In this document: positions 2,760 through 37,653 of the stretch, piece after piece | How positions within the stretch are numbered: the first letter of the stretch is position 1 | Layout: each line of letters starts with the position of its first letter | From: a virus | IMG/VR virus record: IMGVR_UViG_3300023108_000066 | Span: 1-39,052 of that record | Strand: one strand, 5' to 3' | DNA length: 39,052 nt | Notes under the pieces: model-generated | Seen by the model: only the letters and a program-made list of their open reading frames with translations | What the model was told of the DNA's origin: nothing | Database searches by the model: none | Position numbers and translations under genes: made by a program

Positions 2760-2788
2760 TTGACATCATAATGAAACTATAGTATAAT
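2760..2788 (+). promoter_or_regulatory. Early sigma-70-type promoter P5 of the large RNA
   Basis: TTGACA at 2760-2765, 17-nt spacer, TATAAT at 2783-2788, with the shared upstream CATAAAAACTA. The predicted start (about 2795) lies one base before the 5' strand of the helix that closes the RNA (2796-2801). Confidence 0.9.
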
Positions 2789-2794
2789 AGTTGT

Positions 2795-3428
2795 ATATTG
2801 AGGGAAAGGCCCCACCGCGAAAGAGAAAATAGAATTCGCGATTCTATGATCCGGTGAGTAGATACCTTGAGTCGAGAAGAGGACTTTATCAATCCAAAGG
2901 CTCATAACAATAGGTCAAATAACCAGCCTCAGGTTCGCCTGAGACCGAGGAATCGGTTAAACACATGGTTAAATTGCGAATCAATAGAGCGGGTGGGAAA
3001 CCCTGTCCGAGCATGAAGAAACGCTCGATGCTATAGTCGGCTAGGAGCCGCGTACTGAGAACGAGATAGGTTTAGGTCGCAACCTAAACAACACAGAACG
3101 GCAGTTCAGGATCTTTCTTCTTTAGGTATAGGAGTAGTTTGCTACTCTCGAGACTGAAGTTAACAAGTATCAGGTAAATCCGAGACAGGTACCCGCGAAT
3201 TTCTAAGTTTTTTAGATTGGAATATTACGATTAACAATTCCACATTATTTAACGAATTGCGTTAACACAATATTTCCAATCACTAAGGTAGTTTGAAATC
3301 CCTGAGTAGTCATCAGGTCCTTTAGAAAGGCAGTAAGACCAAATGACGATTGTGACACTGAAGTTCAATACCTAGGCGGATCTTGTCATACCTTTGATAG
3401 GCGTATATGGAAGGTCCGCCGTTTTTTT
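2795..3428 (+). ncRNA. Large structured non-coding RNA of unknown class (about 630 nt)
   Basis: No reading frame of useful length crosses this region. It has a consensus promoter (2760-2788), a terminator (3375-3428) and dense potential pairing. TATTGA (2796-2801) pairs with TCAATA (3365-3370), joining the ends. CACCG/CGGTG (2813-2817/2852-2856) encloses a 7-bp hairpin (2829-2835/2841-2847). CTCAGG-TTCG-CCTGAG spans 2928-2943, and ACCGA-GGAA-TCGGT (GNRA-type loop) spans 2944-2957. GGGT/ACCC is at 2991-3003, CGAGC/GCTCG at 3008-3027 and CGGCT/AGCCG at 3038-3050. There is an 8-bp hairpin at 3070-3089 and GAGTAG/CTACTC at 3132-3147. A long stem of about 22 bp lies at 3215-3281, and a three-tier hairpin at 3309-3347. 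Loop TCGCG (2836-2840) is also complementary to CGCGA (2816-2820), a possible pseudoknot. Size, phage setting and adjacent tRNA resemble GOLLD and ROOL RNAs. I cannot confirm membership and it may be a new class. Confidence 0.8.
3375..3428 (+). terminator. Intrinsic terminator of the large RNA
   Basis: GGCGGATCTT (3375-3384) pairs with AAGGTCCGCC (3411-3420). The stem encloses further ATAC/GTAT and CCT/AGG pairs and is followed by seven T residues (3422-3428). The tRNA-Glu gene starts 4 nt after the T run. Confidence 0.85.
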
Positions 3429-3432
3429 ATTC

Positions 3433-3507
3433 GGCCCGTTCGTCTAGTGGTTAGGACACATGGTTTTCATCCATGCAACAGGAGTTCGATTCTCCTACGG
3501 GCTACCA
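3433..3507 (+). tRNA. tRNA-Glu (anticodon UUC)
   Basis: A complete cloverleaf. The acceptor GGCCCGT pairs with ACGGGCT, with G-T at the first pair. The D arm follows GTCTAGTGG. The anticodon stem is CATGG/CCATG with loop TTTTCAT (anticodon TTC), the T arm is AGGAG-TTCGATT-CTCCT, the discriminator is A and CCA is encoded (3505-3507). It matches the usual bacterial tRNA-Glu layout. Because it follows a terminator at once and has no promoter of its own, it must come from read-through or from processing of the large-RNA transcript. Confidence 0.95.
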
Positions 3508-25858: not shown

Positions 25859-26293
25859 TTAATCTTCAGTACACCCAGCATAATAATCTAAGCTCTTTAG
25901 ATGATTATACGCTTGTACTAAATCTGTGTCAGCGGAATCCATATCTAACATGAATTCACACCTTTGGTCGAGGCCTGGTGTACCAATTGATAGCTCGGCT
26001 TCAACTTCTGTTGCGTCTAAACCGGCATAACCTATAGGTTTCATACCATCTAACCTTGCCTGTTTTGTTGCCCACATGGTTACCCATACTCGACAAACAT
26101 ATCCTGCTTGCCAAAATAATTCTGTTCCTTCGTCCCTAACACCGTCGTTAGTCAACCCAGATTCTGTTGAATTATCAGGCGGAAGTGGAATTTCCTGTGT
26201 TCTTTTATGAACTTTTAAATCGGTAATTACGTGATAAGCATCCGGCACTGTCACGCCAGTACCTTGTATTTCATAATCTTTAATTAGTGCCAT
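25859..26293 (-). CDS. Conserved tail-fiber-adjacent hypothetical protein (144 aa)
   Basis: A 144-aa soluble, acidic protein (MALIKDYEIQGTGVTVPDAY, VITDLKVHKRTQEIPL, YVCRVWVTMWATKQARLDGM, then RCEFMLDMDSADTDLVQAYN) with mixed alpha/beta character. Its start overlaps the last 14 nt of the giant fiber gene, which strongly suggests translation follows the fiber. Its position at the fiber's end is where T4 keeps its fiber-assembly factors (gp38/gp57A-like). It has no detectable similarity to those, so an assembly or tip role is only inference. The overlap and the pairing with a large fiber make it a good candidate for a dedicated accessory protein. Confidence 0.72.
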   Translation of the reverse strand: MALIKDYEIQGTGVTVPDAYHVITDLKVHKRTQEIPLPPDNSTESGLTNDGVRDEGTELFWQAGYVCRVWVTMWATKQARLDGMKPIGYAGLDATEVEAELSIGTPGLDQRCEFMLDMDSADTDLVQAYNHLKSLDYYAGCTED

Positions 26294-29200
26294 TCTTACT
26301 ATTCTCCATTATTGATTGCATATTATATACCATTTCTTTCAACATGTCAATATCTTTCTGCATATTATTTATTGTTTCTTCTTGAGTCTTAACAATTGAA
26401 TGTTGGTCCTTAATACCTTCAACAAGTAAACCGACCATCTTCGGATAATCAAGACCGTATTGGTCAATTTCTTCAGCGTATGATACAACCTCAGGAACAA
26501 TCTCTTGAACTTCCTGAGCAATCATACCTAACTGACGACCTTTATAAAGATCATCACGTTCATCAACTTTTGATTCTTTTCTGTTATAATAAACACCACG
26601 TAATTGTAATACTTTATCTAATGCATTATCAATTGTAATGATGTTTTCTTTATTACGACGGTCAGAGTAAGCAACCACGTTACCATTACAGTAAAGTGAA
26701 CCGTTAACTCTCATACGATATCCAGAAACTGTACTTGATGAACCTACACCGGTACAGTTTCTGCTACGGCTATGATATAATACCCAACGCCCTAGACCTT
26801 GTAAGTACCAACCACCATTACCACTACTATCCCACATTTCATGAGGATCATATCCTGCTTGAGGATAAGCAACACCATACCAACCACTTCTGCTTCCGTA
26901 TGAAGCCCATGAACCATAAGATGTTTGGTTATTCGGGAACCAGTGAGCACCGTTATATCCATCATAGATACCTACACCGCCACCACCAACTTGTAGCCAT
27001 GTATTCGCAAATGTATAACTCGAGCTACCGTTAATTTGGAATCTAACAGTGTTTGAATTATAATCATTCATGAACCTGAAGCCTTCGTAACTTGGATTTG
27101 CTCCTAACGAAATACCTGTATGATAGTTAATTCTTAAATCAGGATATGGATAACTCCAGCTTCCTGATGCCTGGAATAATTCGTAAGCGTTACCGATACT
27201 CTGTCCTGAGTTACCACCTGTTCCTCTAAATGCGTATCTGTTTGCCGCAGTTACATTAAACTGTGATGTGGACGCGAAGTCACCGTAGTATGATGTACTA
27301 TTTGAATCGTAATAACGCCCGGCATACATTGAACCACCGTTACCCTCGTTAATATCCAATACTGGAATAGTACGCCAAGAGCGGAAACTACTCCACGTTG
27401 AACGGAAACGAAGGTTTTGGATTGGTCCACCAACCATTTGCCAACCATAGCGAGCTGAACCATTAGAATAGTGATATGCCTGAACACCAACCCAGTGAGA
27501 TGTACCTGAAGGCTGGTTAGGTGGGTTACTCCAAGAATCAATAAATCCTGAACCCCAATCAGCAACAGTGTTGGTCATATCTTGACGACCCCAACCCATC
27601 GCACCAGTCCAATAATCAGTATTACTTGTTATACGAGGTCTTGCTCTGTAATATTCACCACTATCTCTTGTATGTCCTGGCTGATTTAACCAAGCCATTG
27701 TTCTATTACTTACACCTTCAAATCTTGTACTATGAGCAGATGCACCATTGAAGTAGTAAGCAGTATTGTTTCTGTCGTAATAAATTGGAGCTCTTACGTC
27801 AGTTCCAACATAAAGATTTCTATAAATTTCAGCGTATGAATTTCCTGGGTTAAGTCTTAAACCCCAGTTTCCTGAACTGTTTAACAGACCGAAACCTGAA
27901 CCATCATAATAGAGATAACCACGGCGGCCTGTACCTGAACCTTGAGAACCTTGATAACGGTCGTATATAATTAAACCACCAGAACCTGAAGCACCATCTA
28001 AGTGCCAATAACTTGAACCTGGGCTATAGAAATGTCGACCTGTAGATTGGTTATATAAACCTTGGCCTGCATTATAGTTTCTGAACCATGCATCATTATA
28101 ACATTCATTAACTCTTGTAGTTCTAAATCTTGCATCACCTGAACTTGAACCGAAGTAATAAGCTGTATTATTTCTGTCGTAGAAAATATTACTTCTTGTA
28201 TCGTTCATCATAGAGATGCTATTACCATTCCAATAATAGTTTGTATCATCTCTATCGTAAATGAAGTTAACTTGTAGTGTACCGTTAATGTAAGTTGTTC
28301 CGCCTACATACCAGTTAATATATGTTCCGTATCCTGACCTTGCGTCAAGGTGTAAGTTACCGTTTGTAGCAGCAACAGAAGCATAAGAACCAGTCCAATG
28401 TCCGTTAGTACCAACTGCAAGATATGCTCCCCAAGTTGGGTTAGGTCCATATAATGTACCACCTCTAATACGCAATGCTGCGTTAGAAGTAGAGTGTGGA
28501 TCCATGTAATACCCAGTATTATTTGAATCATAGAAGATTGGAGCACGATAAGAACCACGGGCCTCCATATATCCTGACTGAGCATATTCTTCCCAAGTAC
28601 CATTGTGGAATATTTCAGTTCTGCCGTTACGACGCCAGATTGTCATCCATTCGTTATCAATGTCGTTGTAAATACCAACTTCATTATTATTGGCTGACAT
28701 CAATACATAACGACCGTTAATTGAATAACCTTCCCAGCCGCCTTTACCGCCACCGTTTGTTTGGATTGAACCATAATTACCAGAAGGCCAATCTAAATAA
28801 ACATCACCAGCATTGTCGTAGCAAGGATAAAGTCGATTTGTTCTGAGTGTATTGAAACGCGAAGTACTTGCTGGGTCAGCATAATAACCTGTATTATTCC
28901 TATCATACATAATAGGAGTATCAAATCTTGACGATACTAATACATGACCATTACCTCTAATAATCTGATTCCAAGAACCTCCAAATCCACCATCACGGAA
29001 GATGAAGTCCTCTCCACCTGATGTAGCAAATTCAAAGTGGTTATCGTTAGAATCAGTTGCTCGTATATAACCTCTTAAGTTTCCAGCACTTGTATAGAAG
29101 TAATGCGGAGTTCCATTTTGATTTCTTAAACTTCCGTAAATGTTTACTTCGTTCATCCTAGAACTAGAGGCAAAGTCACCGTAATAGAATGTGTTATTAC

Positions 29201-32200
29201 TATCATAATAACGTTGTGCATACATATCACCTGTATTAATGTTAACATTATACATCGCGGTAGTACGCATTGATACTTGACGTTCTTTAGTTCTTCCGCC
29301 AGGTAATGACGAGTTTGTAATACTTGTGACTAAGTTTCTATCATCACCGTTTGCATTTCTTACGTGAACAGCGAAGGAGTTCCAATAAGATACTCTTGGC
29401 CACCAGAAACATAATACTCCATTGTATTGGAACATATACATTGTACTGAAACCAGCTTTACCAATGTGTTGACCTGAATAGTTAATAATAGTATTAGCAT
29501 ACAAGTAACCTTGTGCGGTGAACATAAATGGTGGATCACCTGAATAAGATTTACCTGTTGCTTCAAGTACGAACGAAGCACCGTTAGTTGCTGTCGCAGG
29601 AATACTTGTTTGAACAAGAGTACCTGCTGTAAAGTCAGAACCTGTATGATAACGTGTCGTTACATATAATCCTCTCAACTGAAGGTCGTTAAACCTTGAG
29701 TTGTTGTTCATATCAAGATAGTAACCAGTATTATTATAATCGTAAATTAATGGAGTTCTGAATTGAGCAAACGCGTATGTAATACGGTCAGTATCAACTC
29801 TGAATGATTCGTATTGACCAGGTGAGAAAGATCTGAACCTTCTACCCGAGTAATAGTTCATATAAATGTCTAAACCATTTTGAGCATCAATATGTAAATT
29901 ACCACCAAGATAAATTCTACCATTATTATTTACAGATGTGATTGTTGCGCCGTTTTCAATTTGAACATTATTGAATCTAACGTTACGCATTCTTGCATCA
30001 CCTTGGCTTGAACCAAAGTAGTATGCTGTATTTTCACGTTCGTAGAATATGTTAGCTCTTACATCATTCATGTAAGATACACCACCAAAGTCACCGTAGT
30101 ATGAAGCATTATTTGCATCATAGTATACAGGAGCACGCATATGTCTTGTTGCGTGAAGTACTTCAGTAATTAATCTTGCGTTATATTGTACTCTGTCACC
30201 CCAAAGAACAAAGTCAGCTCCAGTTCCATCTGGGTTGCCATCAGATACTCTAATTTCTGCATCAAACGCTGTGTTAATAAATCCGATTCTGTTGCCCGCC
30301 AGCGTCAACGTATTGAAGTGTGATTGACCTGCTGGATTAGCATAGTATCCAGTATTGTCTGTATCGTAAAAGATTGGAGCTCTCCAATCCTGAGAAGCAG
30401 TACCACCAACACCGATTAATCTACCATCATTCGCAATATAAGACCTATCAGAACCATTTTGTCTGAACTGAACAATTCTATTTGAGTTTCCGTTAGATAC
30501 AATGTACCAACGGTTAGAGTGCATTTGAATCTTACCTACACCTGCACCTGGGTTACCTGTCCAGCTTGAATTACCGTCTGAACGAATATCAGAACTTGTA
30601 ATATTAATCGCATTAGCACCGCCGTTGAAATCAACGTCGCCATTAAATACCATTGCATTAAATACAGATGTACTTGCTGGGTCAGCATAATATCCAGTAT
30701 TGTCTCTGTCATAATAACGGTTGAAGTAAGCATTGGAACCATACAAGTTATTTCCAATAATAACTTCACCGCTTGTATTAATTCTAAATCTCTCAGTACC
30801 CCAAGATTGATTGATATGACCGTGATTTTGTTTGATTCTGAAATCGTTATCTACATAACCGAAACCAACTGACCAAGTTGTTGAATTATATCCACTTGAG
30901 AATAAAATAGAAGGTCGGTCAGTACCACTAGGTACACTTTGTGAGCTCCTATCACCAACTCTGAATTCATGAACAATACCCCAAGAGTGATTACCGTATT
31001 GGTTAATTGTCCTTGCTGCAGTATAGTTTCCTGGCGCTGAACCTGTTCTATATACTGTTAAGATATCTGAACTTCTTGTATCTTGTATTTCTAAATCTTT
31101 GAACCTTGAACCTGAGTGAGGATCTACATACCAGGCTGTATCGTTTAAGTCATATACAATAGGTGTTCTGATTTGCCCACGAACGTCCATTCGACCGCTC
31201 GTATTCAATCTCATCTGATAAGTACCTGCGCCATTACCTGATGTGAATTGTAAATTACCGCCTGAGTTAGAACTTAAGTTATCTGGTGATTCATAAATCT
31301 TCCATTCATTACCACCTTTCCAACGAATACCTTCTTGAGGGCCTGGGTCATTGAATGAAAGGTTGTTTAGATTTTCAATTGAACCGTTATTCCAGTTCCA
31401 AGATCCTACAACATTACTTCCATCTTTAGGGTCAATATAATATCCAGTATTATCTCTATCTCTAAATCTTCTTGCATCAATAATGTCAGCTGTAATATCA
31501 TCAACAGTTAAGTCACCTGTTATGGTTGCATCTCCGCCGATTGTCACATCATCAAGTACTTGTAAATCATCAACTAATAAATTAGATTCAGCATTACGAC
31601 GCTTGAGCATAATTCCAGCAAACTGTCTTAAAGCACCGCCAGAGTTATAGTTCATTAAGATACGAATTCTTACGTAATAACAACCACCTCCGTCTGACCC
31701 ATTATATGGAGTATGAGATGTTGGAATTGTTGTATGGTTCCTATATGTATTCCAAGATGTACCTGTATAGTTTGCACCACCAACTACAAAGTATGTTGTA
31801 CCTGTGTTTCCAGCAATAGGTCTCTTCTGACTATCAAATCTTTCAATACCATAATAAACCAAACCGCCTGAACCTGAAATACGCTTAACAGAAATTTCAC
31901 CGTATAATTCTTCACCAGGAGCAACAGGAATGTAATCTGAATAGAACGTTCTATAAGCAGATGTTTGTAATACATAAGAACCTGCGAAAGGACCGTCTGT
32001 TGTTCTAACAAATTCTGATGTTGTACCTGTAAGCGGACTTTCGTTAGGTGCCATTGCTTTGATGACACGCTTATCAAAATATTCTGTTCCATCAAATAGT
32101 ACTAAGTCAGCTCCACCTGAACCGTATGTTTTAATAATTTCAATGTTTTCGTTTCCACCGTTAAGTGCAAAACTACCTGCTGACACAGTACCATTAAAGT

Positions 32201-35200
32201 GAGCATCACCAGTATCAAGGTCAATACTTGCTCTTAAGTTTCCATTACCTATGAATACAATTTCATTAGGATTAGATGTACTGAAATGTGAACGATATGG
32301 ATTATTATTACCTGCCCACATGATACCCCAGTCAGTAGCTGTATTCCAAATCCAATGAGTATAATCTTGAGCCTCTAATAATTTATTATTATTGCCATCG
32401 CCTGATGTATCAAAACCTTGTCTGAATATTCTACCGTCAATCATTAATGCACGGTTTGTATTACCTGCAGCTGGGTTTAAGTAATAAGTTGTATTGTTTG
32501 AATCGTAATAGATTGGTGCTCGCATTTGATTGTTTGCGAGTAAATATCCACTTCTTGTTTCTGCTTGAACTATTCCATTATAATAAATTAATGCTCCTGC
32601 ATTTCTATACCACTGTTGAGCCCATTCATTATCTACATCGTTGTATATACCTGCACGGTCGGCGCTTGGAGACATAAAGTTCCATTGACCTTGAATAGAA
32701 TATCCTGCCCAACCATTCTTCTGACCACCAACTTCCATTGAACCATAATCACCTGATGCTGCATCAGCGTAATATGTAGTTGCGTGGTTAAAGTAATATC
32801 TTAATGCTTGAACTGCATTGAATCTTGATGTATTATTAGGATCTACATAATAGCCTGTATTATTTGAATCGTAGAAGATTGGTGTTCTTAACTGTTGATT
32901 CGCAAGGAAGTATCCGTTTTCAGTTCTTGCACGCTCAACACCCGCATGCATTAACCTCATTACTCCACCACGTTCACCATACCAGAACCACTGATTGTCT
33001 ACATCGTTATAAACACCTGTGACGTTTCCGCCATCGTGCATAAAGACAGAACGATCATTAATACTAAATCCTTCGTATCCATTTCTTCCACCACCGCTTA
33101 CGGCAAGTGAACCAAATGTTCCTGTAGGTTCCCTTAATATAACAGCGTTACCATCAAGCTTGATTGTATTGAGTCTAGATTCGCCGTTTGGATTTGCGAA
33201 CCAAGAAGAATCATTTAGGTCATAATAAATTGGTGAATAGGTAGCAGTATCAACTCTTAATGAACCAAATATCTGAGAGGTATAGCCTCCGTTCGAAGCA
33301 CCTGAAGAACCTGAGAAAGTACCCCATCTTTGTAATGGTGACCAAGCTGCAGTACCAATTGTTTGTGAAAGATATATTGGAACTCCACCACCGTGGTCAA
33401 ACTTATGTAATTTATGAGCCCAGGTATTACTATTGTAATTACCTCTCATCATCAATCCGTTAGTGCTTGAGTTTGCTCCGCCAATATTTTCATTACCAAC
33501 ATTGATGTTCATAAACTGTTGATAAGAAGTACTTGCTGGGTCAGCGTAATATGTGGAATCATTCCTATCATAGTAACGATAGAAGTAAGCATTATTACCA
33601 GTTACATTACCTGAGAAATCACCTGTTCCTGCGTATACTGAACCCCAACGATAACTTGAATTACCTAAACTACCAGAGTTGTTAACGACTGGGACAAGAT
33701 TACCACCAGCTGCTCCGCCGTTTGTTCCAAATACGTAATGAGTAATTGCTTCGGAAGAATTAAAATACCAAGCGGCGTTAGAACCTGTAGTGACAGCTCC
33801 ATCAGCATGCCAAAATGTAATAGAACCTTGCTGTAATCCACTTAATCCTGGTTGCTCTCCACTGTTTTGGTCTGATACTGTAAGTCCTACACCACCGCCA
33901 TTACTTTGTTTTTGTATTTCAATTCCACTTGAGTAGAATTGTACTGTATTGTTTCTTGACCTAAATGCACCGTTATTAATCTGTAAACGATTCACACCAT
34001 TTGTTTGGAAAAGTAATGTATCGTTACCTGAGAAACCAATTAAAGTATTTGTATCACCACGATGTCTTATATAATCATCAATGTCAACTGTATTTAATTG
34101 TGAATCACCATCTGCATCAAGGTAATATGCTGTATTCTGATATGAATAATATCTGTTAAGGTGAGCATCACCTGTAGAATAAATTGTTTTATTATTTCTG
34201 ACTCTTAGGTATGTGCCATCTTGCATATACCAACCGCCACCCCAACCAAAGGCAAGTTCTTCGTCTTTCAGGAAGGATGCTGTACCACGACCAAAGATAA
34301 TACCGTCGTTATTTCCATTTAAATAAATTGAACCGCCAACATGGACTTTTGCATTACTTGGTGTTGTTGTTAATGCTGTGTTATCACCACCGTCTGTATA
34401 AGTAGGTGAAGCACCTGCATTCATCATTATATTTGCGCTATCGTCAACAATTAATATTTCACTTGCGCCTGATGTCCACCATCCCCAATTTGTTCCGCCT
34501 TCTAAAATTTGATATAAGTTGCCTGAACTATCACCACGAATTGACGAACCGCCTGCTCCGTCGTGTCTAAATTCTATGTACCTTTGACCATTATTAAATG
34601 GATTACTTGTTGGGTCAATTCTGTTAAGATACATTAATGAGTATCCGCCAGAATAATTACCACTGATTGCTACAGTTGTGTTTTGTCCTGAAGCAATATC
34701 GCTATGCCCTGCTAATGCAATACCACCATTACCTGAATTATCATCATATCGAGTATAATTACTGACTGCATCAATACGAATACCACCAGCAAATGTTGCT
34801 GCTAAACTTGTGTCAGCAGGATTTACATAGTATGCATTGTTTTGTCTATCAACAAATCTGTCTGCTTGAATATCACCTTGGACAATAACAGGTTGGAAGA
34901 ATGTTGTATTTGCACCGGTAATATTAACTCTTTCAGCACCACCCGTTACGAATGTAATACTATCATTTGCGTCAAATCCAAGATATGTATTTGTATCACC
35001 ACGATGACGAATATAACTATCAATATCAATTTGTGCCATCTGAGAAGTAGATGCAAAGTCACCATAATAATTTGTATTATTGTTATCGTAGTAAATAGGT
35101 GAACGCATTTGGTTATTTGCTAACACATAAGTATTGTTAACTAATAATCTTTGAGCGTTTCCTGTGACAACTTCAAAACTGTTTGCGCCATTAAAGTTTA

Positions 35201-37601
35201 AATATGTATCAGTATCACCGTCGTGGAAAATAGTTCCGACGAGAGCAATACCATTTAGTCTTGAATTACTTGCTGGGTCTAAATAATAAGTTGCGTTATT
35301 TAAATCGTAATATCTTCCTGCGTATAAGTTAGGGAATATACCATCAACGGTACTTGTAAAGTTTGTGCCATTGATTTCAACTCTTTGTGTTGCATCAGTA
35401 AAGAATTGAATATTGTCGTTTGCGTTAAATCCAAAATAAGTATTTGTGTCGCCGTTGTGAACAATCCAATCATCAATTCCAATTGAGTGTAATACAGAAT
35501 CAGAATTGGGATCCACAAAATAATTTGTATTATCTGAATCTAAAAATCTTGAAGCTGAAAGGTCACCTGTGAATGTACCATTAACTGCTGTGATATCTCC
35601 ATTGACATCAAGGTCGCCATTGATTGTGACTCCTGAATTATTCGCAGTTAATCTCGTTGTGCCATCGGTATCTAAATCAATCGTAGCAGTTTCAAATCGT
35701 AATAATGTATCCGTGTCACCGTTATGGAAAACATTATCATCAACACCAATTTCATGTATTGTTGAAGTACCTGAAGGGTCAAGTATATAACCATTATTGT
35801 TAGTATCAATTAATCTTGGAGCATATAAGTCAGGTTGAACTGTGACCGCACTGTTTGTGACTGTGATACGATTTGTTCCACCTGTAGAAATAACTGCTGA
35901 ATCATTTGCATTGAAACCTACATAAGTATCAGTATCACCACGATGTCTTACATAATCATCAATATCAATACGACTCATTGTTGATGTTGCGTTAGGATTT
36001 ACAATATAATTGCCATCGTTAACATCAATAAACTTCTTACCGTATACATCTTCACCAGCTCTAACGTTTCCTACTGTTGCTTGAACATCGCCCGCGGATG
36101 CTGTAATATTTCCAGATGTTGCTGTAATATCTTGTGCTGCCGTGACATCATTACCTGCTGTCACATCACCTGTTGTAGCAGTTACGTTATTTTGAGCGGT
36201 GACACTATCACCTGCTGTTACGTTTCCTGTTGTTGCTGCGACATTTGTTTGTGCAGTTACGCTTCCTGCTGAAGCGGCAATATTACCTGTCGTTGCTGTA
36301 ATATTATTTTGTGCTGTAATACTATCACCAGCAGTTACATCACCTGCTGTTGCTGATATATCTCCTGTCGTTGCTGTGATATCGTTTTGAGCAGTAATAC
36401 TTGCGCCCGCAGTTACATTTCTGCCTGCTTCAACATCTCGCTCAACTTCAAGATCGCCACTTGCATCAGATTTCATTGCCCAGTTAGCAGCGTTATTTAA
36501 AAATCCGATTTCACCGTTCTGATGATATAAAGTTCTGTTAATACCTTGGCCATCGAAGAATATCTGTGCAGCACCAGCATTATCACCTATTGTAAGGTCA
36601 CCCTCGATTGTAATATTTCCTGCTGCTGTATCATCAACATCACTTCTTAAAAATTGTTCAGCTTCTAGTCCGTCAACTGTATCAGCGTCAAATCCATTAC
36701 CAGGACCTTCATCTGCAGTTGTAATAATTCTACCTAATACTGAACCACCAACTTCAAGTTGCCAATAATCGTTCGTTTCATTCCATACAAGTTTAGGATT
36801 TGCTAAGGTACCTCGTTCAACTTCAATACCACCATTTTCTGTTGGAGCTGAACCTGTATAATTTGCATTAAGTGTAATTACATTATCAGATAATAAAATC
36901 TCTTCGGTATTGACATATGTCGTATTACCTGATACAGTAAGGTCTCCACCTATTGTCACGCTTCCTGCGATAGATGCATTTTGTTGAGCTTCAAGGAATG
37001 CTTTAATTACTGCTTGACCATCAACAGTTAAGTTAGTATCAATTTGAGCAGACCCTGTGACATCAATATCTTGGCTGAAGAATATATTACCTGCTGCAGT
37101 ATCATCAGCATCGGATCTTAAGAATTGACTTGCTTCTAAACCATCAACCGTATCTGCATCTAATCCATTACCTGCGCCTTCATCTGCAGTTGTAAGAATA
37201 CGATTACCTTCAATCGTTGTAGTAGAAAGGCCTGTAAAGTCAGTTCCTGTACTTGTGAATGCTAATTTATTTGAACCTGCATATTTAATAACAATACCTG
37301 CGGTACCGTCATAAAATTCAATACTATTTCCTTGCTGAGGATTTGTGATGGAGTAATCGCCTGTTCCAATATTGCGAATCTGGAGTGAATCAGAATCGCC
37401 TTCAAATTGTGCTACGATTGTGCCAGCAGAAGCTCCACCTGAATTGGTGACTTTTAATGTTGGTGTACTTTGCGTACCTTGTGTAAGGACTGTATCACCG
37501 GTGACTTGAAGCTGTTCTCCAGTATCGGTATTGCTTCCGATTACAGCATTCTCCGGTGTCAAGAGTCCATTCTTGACTATAAATTTTTTGTCATTTGCCA
37601 T
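26280..37601 (-). CDS. Giant modular tail fiber with C-terminal S74 chaperone-protease (about 3773 aa)
   Basis: A single 11.3-kb gene. I start it at ATG 37601 (MANDKKFIVKNGL), with GGGGAG upstream; a GTG at 37610 is an alternative that adds three residues. N-terminal strand/turn modules include two copies of TTADEG-x-GNG-x-DADTVDGLEA. They are followed by a low-complexity TTGD-x-TAG region (about 390-515). Then come more than 20 repeats of the pattern YYD-x-NNT-x-YY-x-DP-x-STS-x-x-N, about six HRGDTNTYLGF blocks and three copies of an 85-residue GYSI/IYNDVDNEW module. The C-terminal 128 residues are an S74-type intramolecular chaperone with SDRRNKENI (S3646, K3651), the Ser/Lys dyad spaced as in endosialidase chaperones. 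It would trimerise, then cut itself off before S3646. It is about three times longer than T4 gp34 and probably the main receptor-binding fiber. Confidence 0.92.
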   Translation of the reverse strand: MANDKKFIVKNGLLTPENAVIGSNTDTGEQLQVTGDTVLTQGTQSTPTLKVTNSGGASAGTIVAQFEGDSDSLQIRNIGTGDYSITNPQQGNSIEFYDGTAGIVIKYAGSNKLAFTSTGTDFTGLSTTTIEGNRILTTADEGAGNGLDADTVDGLEASQFLRSDADDTAAGNIFFSQDIDVTGSAQIDTNLTVDGQAVIKAFLEAQQNASIAGSVTIGGDLTVSGNTTYVNTEEILLSDNVITLNANYTGSAPTENGGIEVERGTLANPKLVWNETNDYWQLEVGGSVLGRIITTADEGPGNGFDADTVDGLEAEQFLRSDVDDTAAGNITIEGDLTIGDNAGAAQIFFDGQGINRTLYHQNGEIGFLNNAANWAMKSDASGDLEVERDVEAGRNVTAGASITAQNDITATTGDISATAGDVTAGDSITAQNNITATTGNIAASAGSVTAQTNVAATTGNVTAGDSVTAQNNVTATTGDVTAGNDVTAAQDITATSGNITASAGDVQATVGNVRAGEDVYGKKFIDVNDGNYIVNPNATSTMSRIDIDDYVRHRGDTDTYVGFNANDSAVISTGGTNRITVTNSAVTVQPDLYAPRLIDTNNNGYILDPSGTSTIHEIGVDDNVFHNGDTDTLLRFETATIDLDTDGTTRLTANNSGVTINGDLDVNGDITAVNGTFTGDLSASRFLDSDNTNYFVDPNSDSVLHSIGIDDWIVHNGDTNTYFGFNANDNIQFFTDATQRVEINGTNFTSTVDGIFPNLYAGRYYDLNNATYYLDPASNSRLNGIALVGTIFHDGDTDTYLNFNGANSFEVVTGNAQRLLVNNTYVLANNQMRSPIYYDNNNTNYYGDFASTSQMAQIDIDSYIRHRGDTNTYLGFDANDSITFVTGGAERVNITGANTTFFQPVIVQGDIQADRFVDRQNNAYYVNPADTSLAATFAGGIRIDAVSNYTRYDDNSGNGGIALAGHSDIASGQNTTVAISGNYSGGYSLMYLNRIDPTSNPFNNGQRYIEFRHDGAGGSSIRGDSSGNLYQILEGGTNWGWWTSGASEILIVDDSANIMMNAGASPTYTDGGDNTALTTTPSNAKVHVGGSIYLNGNNDGIIFGRGTASFLKDEELAFGWGGGWYMQDGTYLRVRNNKTIYSTGDAHLNRYYSYQNTAYYLDADGDSQLNTVDIDDYIRHRGDTNTLIGFSGNDTLLFQTNGVNRLQINNGAFRSRNNTVQFYSSGIEIQKQSNGGGVGLTVSDQNSGEQPGLSGLQQGSITFWHADGAVTTGSNAAWYFNSSEAITHYVFGTNGGAAGGNLVPVVNNSGSLGNSSYRWGSVYAGTGDFSGNVTGNNAYFYRYYDRNDSTYYADPASTSYQQFMNINVGNENIGGANSSTNGLMMRGNYNSNTWAHKLHKFDHGGGVPIYLSQTIGTAAWSPLQRWGTFSGSSGASNGGYTSQIFGSLRVDTATYSPIYYDLNDSSWFANPNGESRLNTIKLDGNAVILREPTGTFGSLAVSGGGRNGYEGFSINDRSVFMHDGGNVTGVYNDVDNQWFWYGERGGVMRLMHAGVERARTENGYFLANQQLRTPIFYDSNNTGYYVDPNNTSRFNAVQALRYYFNHATTYYADAASGDYGSMEVGGQKNGWAGYSIQGQWNFMSPSADRAGIYNDVDNEWAQQWYRNAGALIYYNGIVQAETRSGYLLANNQMRAPIYYDSNNTTYYLNPAAGNTNRALMIDGRIFRQGFDTSGDGNNNKLLEAQDYTHWIWNTATDWGIMWAGNNNPYRSHFSTSNPNEIVFIGNGNLRASIDLDTGDAHFNGTVSAGSFALNGGNENIEIIKTYGSGGADLVLFDGTEYFDKRVIKAMAPNESPLTGTTSEFVRTTDGPFAGSYVLQTSAYRTFYSDYIPVAPGEELYGEISVKRISGSGGLVYYGIERFDSQKRPIAGNTGTTYFVVGGANYTGTSWNTYRNHTTIPTSHTPYNGSDGGGCYYVRIRILMNYNSGGALRQFAGIMLKRRNAESNLLVDDLQVLDDVTIGGDATITGDLTVDDITADIIDARRFRDRDNTGYYIDPKDGSNVVGSWNWNNGSIENLNNLSFNDPGPQEGIRWKGGNEWKIYESPDNLSSNSGGNLQFTSGNGAGTYQMRLNTSGRMDVRGQIRTPIVYDLNDTAWYVDPHSGSRFKDLEIQDTRSSDILTVYRTGSAPGNYTAARTINQYGNHSWGIVHEFRVGDRSSQSVPSGTDRPSILFSSGYNSTTWSVGFGYVDNDFRIKQNHGHINQSWGTERFRINTSGEVIIGNNLYGSNAYFNRYYDRDNTGYYADPASTSVFNAMVFNGDVDFNGGANAINITSSDIRSDGNSSWTGNPGAGVGKIQMHSNRWYIVSNGNSNRIVQFRQNGSDRSYIANDGRLIGVGGTASQDWRAPIFYDTDNTGYYANPAGQSHFNTLTLAGNRIGFINTAFDAEIRVSDGNPDGTGADFVLWGDRVQYNARLITEVLHATRHMRAPVYYDANNASYYGDFGGVSYMNDVRANIFYERENTAYYFGSSQGDARMRNVRFNNVQIENGATITSVNNNGRIYLGGNLHIDAQNGLDIYMNYYSGRRFRSFSPGQYESFRVDTDRITYAFAQFRTPLIYDYNNTGYYLDMNNNSRFNDLQLRGLYVTTRYHTGSDFTAGTLVQTSIPATATNGASFVLEATGKSYSGDPPFMFTAQGYLYANTIINYSGQHIGKAGFSTMYMFQYNGVLCFWWPRVSYWNSFAVHVRNANGDDRNLVTSITNSSLPGGRTKERQVSMRTTAMYNVNINTGDMYAQRYYDSNNTFYYGDFASSSRMNEVNIYGSLRNQNGTPHYFYTSAGNLRGYIRATDSNDNHFEFATSGGEDFIFRDGGFGGSWNQIIRGNGHVLVSSRFDTPIMYDRNNTGYYADPASTSRFNTLRTNRLYPCYDNAGDVYLDWPSGNYGSIQTNGGGKGGWEGYSINGRYVLMSANNNEVGIYNDIDNEWMTIWRRNGRTEIFHNGTWEEYAQSGYMEARGSYRAPIFYDSNNTGYYMDPHSTSNAALRIRGGTLYGPNPTWGAYLAVGTNGHWTGSYASVAATNGNLHLDARSGYGTYINWYVGGTTYINGTLQVNFIYDRDDTNYYWNGNSISMMNDTRSNIFYDRNNTAYYFGSSSGDARFRTTRVNECYNDAWFRNYNAGQGLYNQSTGRHFYSPGSSYWHLDGASGSGGLIIYDRYQGSQGSGTGRRGYLYYDGSGFGLLNSSGNWGLRLNPGNSYAEIYRNLYVGTDVRAPIYYDRNNTAYYFNGASAHSTRFEGVSNRTMAWLNQPGHTRDSGEYYRARPRITSNTDYWTGAMGWGRQDMTNTVADWGSGFIDSWSNPPNQPSGTSHWVGVQAYHYSNGSARYGWQMVGGPIQNLRFRSTWSSFRSWRTIPVLDINEGNGGSMYAGRYYDSNSTSYYGDFASTSQFNVTAANRYAFRGTGGNSGQSIGNAYELFQASGSWSYPYPDLRINYHTGISLGANPSYEGFRFMNDYNSNTVRFQINGSSSYTFANTWLQVGGGGVGIYDGYNGAHWFPNNQTSYGSWASYGSRSGWYGVAYPQAGYDPHEMWDSSGNGGWYLQGLGRWVLYHSRSRNCTGVGSSSTVSGYRMRVNGSLYCNGNVVAYSDRRNKENIITIDNALDKVLQLRGVYYNRKESKVDERDDLYKGRQLGMIAQEVQEIVPEVVSYAEEIDQYGLDYPKMVGLLVEGIKDQHSIVKTQEETINNMQKDIDMLKEMVYNMQSIMENSKNGTN
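26283..26666 (-). other. S74 peptidase / intramolecular chaperone domain of the giant fiber
   Basis: The 128 C-terminal codons of the fiber. The motif SDRRNKENI contains the catalytic Ser and, five residues on, Lys. RQLGMIAQEVQEIVPEVV is the conserved core helix region, and the end is a coiled coil (TQEETINNMQKDIDMLKEMV). The domain helps trimerisation and is released by self-cleavage at the Ser. Confidence 0.9.
36055..36430 (-). repeat. Degenerate tandem repeat region in the giant fiber
   Basis: A low-complexity coding stretch of alternating units built on TTGDVTAG, DSVTAQNN and TTGNI-x-ASAGSV, repeated about a dozen times with variation. At DNA level this gives many near-identical blocks of gct/act/gtt codons. 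It encodes a beta-helical or stalk-like segment and is a likely hotspot for length change by recombination. Confidence 0.8.
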
Positions 37602-37653
37602 TCGGTTCACTCTCCCCAGATAGGCGATTTAAATTGTTCAACTGTTATGTTTT

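Follow-up and report, generated by a model that had tools for sequence, protein, structure and literature searches.

A candidate family of large structured phage RNAs, conserved in environmental DNA and without a match in Rfam

Introduction

Phage T4 encodes two stable non-tRNA transcripts, RNAs C and D, which lie by the tRNA genes of this T4-type phage and whose function is unknown. The RNA described here likewise sits beside a tRNA gene, and is much larger than either of them. Among large and ornate RNAs of phages, GOLLD and ROOL have been solved and are, according to PMC12286853, still without a known function; the same paper attributes to GOLLD a conserved 3′ region and a variable 5′ region. 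A homo-oligomeric RNA cage is a further hallmark of GOLLD. With GOLLD the present RNA has in common that it is a large, phage-borne, structured and modular RNA, often located by tRNAs and of unknown function, while it differs in being smaller, in having a conserved core of approximately 395 nt followed by a variable 3′ end, and in being known from its sequence alone. ROOL, likewise large, ornate and carried by phages, has no known function either and is often found near tRNAs; the RNA under study gave no match to the ROOL model. Finally, OLE is about 600 nt long and equally ornate, and it has the ribosomal protein bS21 as a partner, a bS21-like ORF being located near some copies of the RNA studied here; in PMC12054373, bS21 is presented as a component of the OLE ribonucleoprotein (RNP) that binds a mimic of the Shine-Dalgarno (SD)/anti-SD pairing. 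In contrast to the present RNA, OLE is cellular, occurs mostly in Bacillota together with OLE-associated proteins, and full Rfam scans did not return an OLE match.

In the current study, an RNA gene in a virus record from environmental DNA, which an earlier note made from the sequence had singled out as a large, ornate, promoter-driven phage RNA, was compared with its relatives, and its fold, its transcription signals and its neighbourhood were analysed.

Methods

The DNA analysed, referred to below as the window, is the whole 39,052-base stretch of IMG/VR virus record IMGVR_UViG_3300023108_000066, in which the RNA gene occupies positions 2795-3428 of the + strand. Sequence stretches or contigs are designated by L-numbers (L083, L105 etc.). 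Of at least 600 related capsid genes the 80 best were kept, and the loci surrounding them formed the starting set; motifs conserved in the first relatives were turned into search patterns. The covariance model R1, built from 8 seed sequences, represents the central part of the core with 132 positions and 15 pairs.

For the core in its entirety, the consensus obtained with RNAalifold was poor, with length-variable stems misaligned and L093 and L096 mis-cut, and strands were extracted helix by helix in its place. Out of 50 copies, those used numbered 50 for P1, 36 for P6, 30 for P9 (in which the L088 strand was mis-cut), 49 for P10, 48 for P12 and 47 for P15. The strands of P9 and P10 were the best of several registers, and those of P5, P8, P16 and P17 were obtained by a best-helix search; the same choice of register or helix was applied to swapped strands for P5, P8, P10, P16 and P17.

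Results

Genomic setting and coding capacity

The window carries head and tail genes of the T4 type (portal, protease, scaffold, major capsid protein, sheath and large terminase) and belongs to a phage known from environmental DNA. With the capsid proteins of the 15 records listed, out of 2,516 matching phage records, that of the window shares 60.7-65.2% identity, the listed matches including Sinorhizobium phages (65%), Methylophilales phage Melnitz (64.6%) and Pelagibacter phage HTVC008M (60.7%). The RNA gene is flanked by short ORFs on the same strand and by tRNA-Glu (Table 1); the capsid gene, located beyond the RNA and tRNA-Glu on the opposite strand, converges on it. A single ORF of 3,776 codons occupies 26280-37610 of the minus strand.

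The earlier note had assigned no coding capacity to 2795-3428, and this was borne out, as no convincing ORF was identified: the longest ORFs overlapping 2790-3430 encode 51 aa on the minus strand and 49 aa on the plus strand, both from TTG starts, and those with an ATG start encode 42 and 41 aa (minus) and 23 aa (plus).

Within 2.4 kb of the window there are four perfect TTGACA-17-TATAAT sites (397-425, 778-806, 1257-1285 and 2760-2788), each shortly 5′ of an ORF or RNA, which make up a dense array of early-type promoters.

Table 1. Coordinates of the RNA gene's features in the window
Feature	Position	Strand	Basis or remark
Sigma-70 type promoter TTGACA-17-TATAAT	2760..2788	+	perfect consensus match
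RNA core, comprising the P1-closed 5′ domain and the 3′ domain P11-P18	2795..3190	+	~395 nt
P1, closes 5′ domain	2796-2801 / 2981-2986	+	partner in 50/50 copies
P3	2814-2817 / 2852-2855	+	ACCG/CGGT, ACCA/TGGT, AACT/AGTT and others; read from aligned rows
P4 hairpin, self-complementary loop	2829..2847	+	loop UCGCG in window
P5	2868-2873 / 2899-2904	+	0/300 swaps as good; 5.40 vs 4.21 swapped
P6, UUAUCAA-type loop	2881-2883 / 2893-2895	+	30/36 pairs vs 19.0 shuffled, 0/2000
P8	2920-2925 / 2966-2971	+	0/300 swaps as good; 5.25 vs 4.43 swapped
UUCG hairpin inside P8	2928-2943 (UUCG 2934-2937)	+	sits where relatives have P9
P10, GGAA tetraloop 2949-2952, inside P8	2945-2956	+	68/68 paired
P11	2988-2989 / 3055-3056	+	read from alignments; longer in e.g. 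L098, L105
P12	3010-3014 / 3028-3032	+	covariation, 5 pairs in R1 seed test
P13	3038-3041 / 3047-3050	+	covariation, 3 pairs in R1 seed test
P14	3070-3077 / 3082-3089	+	covariation, 3 pairs in R1 seed test
P15	3096-3099 / 3104-3107	+	covariation, 4 pairs in R1 seed test
P18	3109-3112 / 3178-3181	+	read from sequence; unformed in L107, L103 types
P17	3117-3120 / 3156-3159	+	0/300 swaps as good; modest, 3.90 vs 3.25
P16	3132-3137 / 3142-3147	+	0/300 swaps as good; modest, 5.61 vs 5.02
3′ module: long hairpin, AAATGACGATTGTGA element, terminator	3205..3428	+	~220 nt, occurs without core elsewhere
Module hairpin H	3215..3281	+	outer stem 3215-3222/3274-3281, perfect in window
Intrinsic terminator: 10-bp stem that contains an inner hairpin and is followed by a T run	3375..3427	+	fold and sequence
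tRNA-Glu (ttc)	3433..3507	+	adjoins RNA gene

Relatives of the RNA gene

The RNA gene is present in about 50 viral contigs, all of them from environmental DNA. Profile comparison of the capsid-gene loci revealed two relatives, L003 and L014, and L002 holds just the 3′ end of the RNA at a contig edge. The pattern ACACARRACGGCRGTYYNGGRTC, which contains no promoter letters, matched 20 viral contigs, all 20 of which also match R1, while TATAATN{5,9}ATTGAGGGAAN{3,6}CCCC matched 49, of which 47 are R1-positive; the remaining two are without the modelled part, L127 being cut off short of it and L112 having lost it. A relaxed 5′ pattern returned 73 stretches (the 49 known and 24 new), L149, a copy cut at the contig end, being the sole true new member, and a module pattern added L165, the core end also being present in L167 and L168 at contig edges. 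L101 and L102, two of the 17 stretches retrieved with a further pattern, were rejected as not being the RNA.

R1 matches 50 of 57 sources at an E value of 9e-15 or better, the best noise being 0.042, a result that attests to specificity more than to reach because the 50 include the eight seeds and many sequences close to one of these. Applied to 79 capsid-gene loci, the model gave one match, L003, which is the same contig as L082; L014, tested separately, also matched, and six RNA-bearing records searched in full gave one match each. The copies are not independent, corresponding to 32 to 38 distinct cores depending on the cut points.

HTVC008M and Melnitz are isolated phages whose capsid genes are related; scanning their whole genomes with R1 did not detect the RNA (best 0.07 and 0.68, respectively). 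Isolated phages were also searched by blastn with four members as queries, records very near the window possibly having been left out: one query returned 274 records, none covering 80%, the 40 listed matching only its tRNA end (query 723-817); a second returned 43, the 15 listed matching only at a terminator-like stretch; and for two further members none was found. The sole match in cellular genomes, L134 (Omnitrophota), obtained with an exact pattern that would miss diverged copies, is not matched by R1 and was judged a chance occurrence.

Transcription signals

The consensus promoter and the intrinsic terminator described in the earlier note are both present. A −35 element is located exactly 17 nt 5′ of TATAAT in 50/50 copies (TTGACA in 43, TTGACT in seven). 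These copies had been selected on TATAAT and on the start motif, whereas no search pattern included the −35 element. Two of the 20 stretches retrieved with ACACARRACGGCRGTYYNGGRTC, L085 and L090, do not extend to the 5′ end; TATAAT is present in each of the remaining 18, which all belong to the set of 50. The distance from TATAAT to the start motif A[C/T]ATTGAGGG downstream of it is 6 nt in 48 of the 50 copies and 7 nt in two, and transcription is predicted to start at approximately position 2795. In the window, a hairpin at 3375-3420 is followed by seven T, and the segment 3365-3428 folded alone reaches −22.1 kcal/mol; a simple terminator scanner did not report this hairpin.

Fold and covariation of the core

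The RNA of the window folds at −171.8 kcal/mol (z −2.57, from 20 shuffles only). A model built by hand for the window has 19 helices with a total of 100 pairs, each of them canonical, and a fold in which these pairs are enforced (−147.8 kcal/mol) is less stable than the free minimum. Local helices, as described in the earlier note, are confirmed, many of those in the model showing compensatory changes in relatives; P11 was reduced to two pairs in it because the third pair is a C-A mismatch in the window, and it is weak in L114. The UUCG and GNRA-type loops are likewise present (Table 1); GGCA, the P15 loop, was no longer counted as GNRA on account of the C at its third position.

P1 hardly varies, and its pairing is not significant by shuffling (420/2000 as high); it shows a double change, U-A to C-G, in L083 and L014. 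The helix encloses the 3-bp P2, P3, P4, P5, P6, P8 and P10, plus the UUCG hairpin in the window. P4 is missing in 14/50 copies, and its loop reads AAUGCAA, AAACGUA, AGUCGCGA or AGUAAUUAA in relatives, self-complementarity being absent in L083 and L014. A self-complementary tetramer occurs in five of seven P4 loop sequences, an excess noticed after the fact (chance about 0.035; the loop ends were placed by hand). It is a weak hint that the RNA may assemble homomerically through these loops, against which the copies lacking P4 have to be set; no other partner of the loop was common to the 12 sequences looked at. The loop pseudoknot formerly proposed (2816-2820 with 2836-2840) did not hold up, its strands being complementary in the window and L117 and without such a partner at this place in ten others (2/12). 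A pairing between the P4 and P14 loops, which fits L082 and L097 and fails in L104 and the window, was also rejected.

Alignment of homologs revealed strong covariation in the helices tested. In the R1 seed alignment (P12-P15), 98.3% of 120 cells are paired versus 80.2 when shuffled, and 10 of the 15 pairs have changed on both sides versus 3.8; shuffles scored as high in 0/500 cases on four measures and in 1/500 on a fifth (further pair types). Sliding the partners by 1-3 columns lowers pairing to 24.5-41.2%. Strand extraction gave 49/50 pairs over 10 strand types for P12 (0/2000 shuffles as good), 31/32 over eight types for P15 (3/2000) and, for P9, whose choice of register has no swapped-strand control, 26/28 over seven types (0/2000). 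The 36 P6 pairs cover nine strand types, and the P10 pairs, fully formed, cover 17, swapped P10 strands forming 42.2 on average and at most 55 in 2000 trials. P17 is found with six strand pairs (CUUC/GAAG, CUCC/GGAG, UCUC/GAGA, CUCU/AGAG, UCCC/GGGA and UAUC/GAUA) and is unformed in L083. These tests ignore phylogeny, an objection which is answered in part by the slide control and the number of strand types. Taken together, there is almost certainly a conserved structured RNA gene at 2795-3428.

The 3′ module

The long stem of the earlier note (3215-3281) is confirmed as hairpin H, which has conserved ACGA and ACAUUAUUUAAC-type strands and whose outer stem covaries over 23 versions (9.50 versus 6.03 with swapped strands, 0/300 as good); the two types of its inner stems had been fixed beforehand by the patterns used in the search. 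Among the 46 copies with a defined core end, the core is followed by hairpin H in 27, by a second H type in 10 and by neither pattern in nine, of which L110 and L111 carry a diverged H as read from the sequence. A plain terminator lies directly 3′ of the core, with no module, in L083, L093, L096 and L122, and the core of L105, L106 and L123 is without a terminator and has a short ORF next to it.

The module also occurs without a core: in L164 (1843 onward), L166 and L169, whose sequences coincide in this region and may represent one phage, module, terminator and tRNA-Glu lie 3′ of a short ORF, and R1 found no convincing match over the records of such core-less modules (best 0.04). Conversely, L112 (2024-2400) is a natural deletion that has kept the 5′ domain and the module and lost P11-P18, indicating that the full core is not always needed. 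By their occurrence in these sequences, core and 3′ module are two separable units, and the indivisible RNA of about 630 nt originally envisaged gives way to a core of ~395 nt and a module of ~220 nt that is swapped, missing or free-standing elsewhere.

Comparison with Rfam and the literature

At gathering scores, cmscan against Rfam 15 returned only tRNAs in the window, and in 19 loci only tRNAs and one glutamine riboswitch. With E values up to 10, the window gave tRNA and three sub-threshold matches, two of them on the minus strand, which were rejected as chance-level: PreQ1 (minus strand, 20.9 bits against a gathering score of 39), mir-4677 and a CRISPR repeat. The divergent members L105, L083 and L120 gave chance-level matches only. 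RNase P, tmRNA and group I and II introns had no covariance-model match in the window, and ARAGORN found no tmRNA there.

The glutamine (glnA) riboswitch, which is above its gathering score, lies at 1615-1667 of L083, about 500 nt upstream of the RNA.

At the level of covariance models, a distinct RNA class is supported by the lack of an Rfam match beyond chance level in the window and three divergent members, approximately 50 relatives, strong covariation, an own promoter and, usually, a terminator. The RNA exceeds 350 nt, has a covarying fold and its own transcription signals and shows no convincing coding, which are the features of a large structured phage non-coding RNA, and its family is best filed with the large ornate phage RNAs, matching no GOLLD, ROOL or OLE model. 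The family is new with respect to the families that have an Rfam number, a set from which published candidates such as Ocean-VI (PMC2864571) are absent; a description of this RNA was not found in the open-access literature searched.

Discussion

The explanation that best accounts for the whole of the data is that of a stand-alone RNA gene of a new family, the product of which would act in trans as a particle or as the scaffold of an RNP, and to which we assign a probability of roughly 0.55. That the RNA is a stand-alone, trans-acting product is in itself likely, while the particle or RNP mechanism, for which GOLLD, ROOL and OLE serve as analogues (PMC12286853 and PMC12054373), is put forward tentatively and at somewhat less than even odds. 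Since the promoter is near the sigma-70 consensus, the host RNA polymerase would probably transcribe the gene, early in infection. The transcript is predicted to fold into a 5′ domain closed by P1 and a 3′ domain (P11-P18), to be followed by an optional and exchangeable 3′ module and usually to end at a terminator. The RNA itself would then be the product, most likely as a trans-acting folded particle or a protein-bound scaffold.

The genes adjoining the RNA bear directly on whether it might instead be a cis-acting leader or attenuator, in which termination would alternate with read-through into hemC, tRNA-Glu or a small ORF. A tRNA-Glu (recognised by its exact 26-base start) lies within 1.5 kb of 19/46 copies with a defined core end, and a hemC-like start motif within 1.5 kb downstream of 13/46, both counts being lower bounds, with a few copies having less than 1.5 kb downstream. 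Adjacency to a tRNA, which the earlier note names for GOLLD and ROOL, holds in the window and is not general. The hemC-like gene (hydroxymethylbilane synthase), at 1082-1906 in L082 and found with 12 other copies, was confirmed as family TIGR00212 in the two tested, L082 and L097; L088 has both genes downstream, tRNA-Glu first. PMC7029224, on pelagimyophages, mentions porphobilinogen deaminase in one deep-water group and bS21 in pelagimyophages. As read from the sequence, other copies have a capsid-like gene upstream and a tail-tube-like gene downstream (L083 and L122) or an Hsp20-like gene 3′ of the RNA (L093). A leader would be compatible with the recurrent hemC-like motif, with the short ORFs that no terminator precedes in L105, L106 and L123, some copies of this kind being potential leaders, and with L164, L166 and L169, in which a short ORF has the module as its tail and tRNA-Glu comes next. 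However, the downstream genes differ across the family by lineage (tRNA-Glu, hemC, bS21 and others), which argues against one cis-regulatory target and for a product acting on its own; in L083, L093, L096 and L122, with their plain terminator directly after the core, the next gene is equipped with a promoter-like site, a poor one in the case of L083; and a body of ~395 nt is very large for a leader. We consider this explanation unlikely.

A link to translation is suggested by the bS21-like motif found downstream of 10/43 copies with at least 600 nt downstream, where the ORF starts 186-689 nt past the core (L105, L106, L110, L111, L113, L115, L121, L123, L129 and L131) and has a TTGACA/TATAAT site close to its start; the L105 and L110 records were positive for the bS21 family, PF01165. 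The RNA might accordingly be OLE-like and bind the phage's bS21, with P17 and the preceding GGAUC resembling a 16S rRNA 3′ end that is paired to a Shine-Dalgarno sequence. At 3109-3123 of the window, and likewise in L084, L088 and L098, there is a hairpin followed by GGAUC and a pyrimidine run, which ends in CUUCUUU in the window and in CUCCUUU in some members. We take the stretch of GGAUC and CUCCUUU to resemble the 3′ end of 16S rRNA, a comparison made after the fact. The motif GGATC-N(1-5)-CTCCTTT occurs in nine RNA loci and nowhere else in the collected loci (3.0 Mb, both strands), and bS21 binds an SD/anti-SD mimic in the OLE RNP (PMC12054373). Against this, eight of the 33 occurrences of the looser GGATC-N(1-5)-CYYCYTT are in RNA-free loci, and other lineages have CUUC, UAUC, UCUC or UCCC where CUCC would stand. 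Furthermore, the ten copies with a bS21-like ORF represent few lineages, bS21 lies about 30 kb from the RNA in the L097 record, it was not found in 7/11 RNA- or module-bearing records searched, mostly fragments, nor in the window record, itself a fragment, and HTVC008M and Melnitz carry bS21 but not the RNA. We regard this explanation as quite improbable.

A divergent GOLLD or ROOL missed by the Rfam models would agree with the size, the phage origin, the tRNA neighbour and the ornate fold, but neither these models nor OLE gave a match up to an E value of 10 in the window, L105, L083 or L120 (GOLLD RF02032, ROOL RF03087). The GOLLD model found 0/11 records over the cut-off, its best values of 0.56 and 0.69 both lying away from the RNA, with 0/14 control genomes over the cut-off and below-cut-off signal in 5/14; the ROOL model found none in seven records, though no control gave signal either. 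The variable part lies moreover 3′ in the present RNA, as opposed to the conserved 3′ region of GOLLD (PMC12286853). At the level of covariance models, and with the controls as stated, a class apart from GOLLD and ROOL is supported and membership of either is very improbable.

Just as improbable is a single 630-nt RNA whose ends are joined by the six complementary bases at 2796-2801 and 3365-3370, the closing helix of the earlier note, since the 5′ strand has its partner at 2981-2986 in all copies, with the double change noted for L083 and L014, and since the 3365-3370 copy lies in a module that is separable from the core, absent from some members and different there in L097, so that this helix is not a family feature.

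A more far-reaching version of the stand-alone, trans-acting product is that of a third class of ornate phage RNA, in which a modular particle, either homomeric through P4 or an RNP with bS21, would remodel host translation early in infection and the 3′ module would be a mobile cassette; as a whole, we regard this version as doubtful.

Few RNAs of such size and complexity are known. In the present family, the separable domains, the L112 deletion and the module without a core constitute natural experiments on what such RNAs do, and the bS21-like neighbours in some lineages open a link to translation, of the kind reported for OLE, to direct tests. With its consensus, the RNA can be searched for in transcriptomes.
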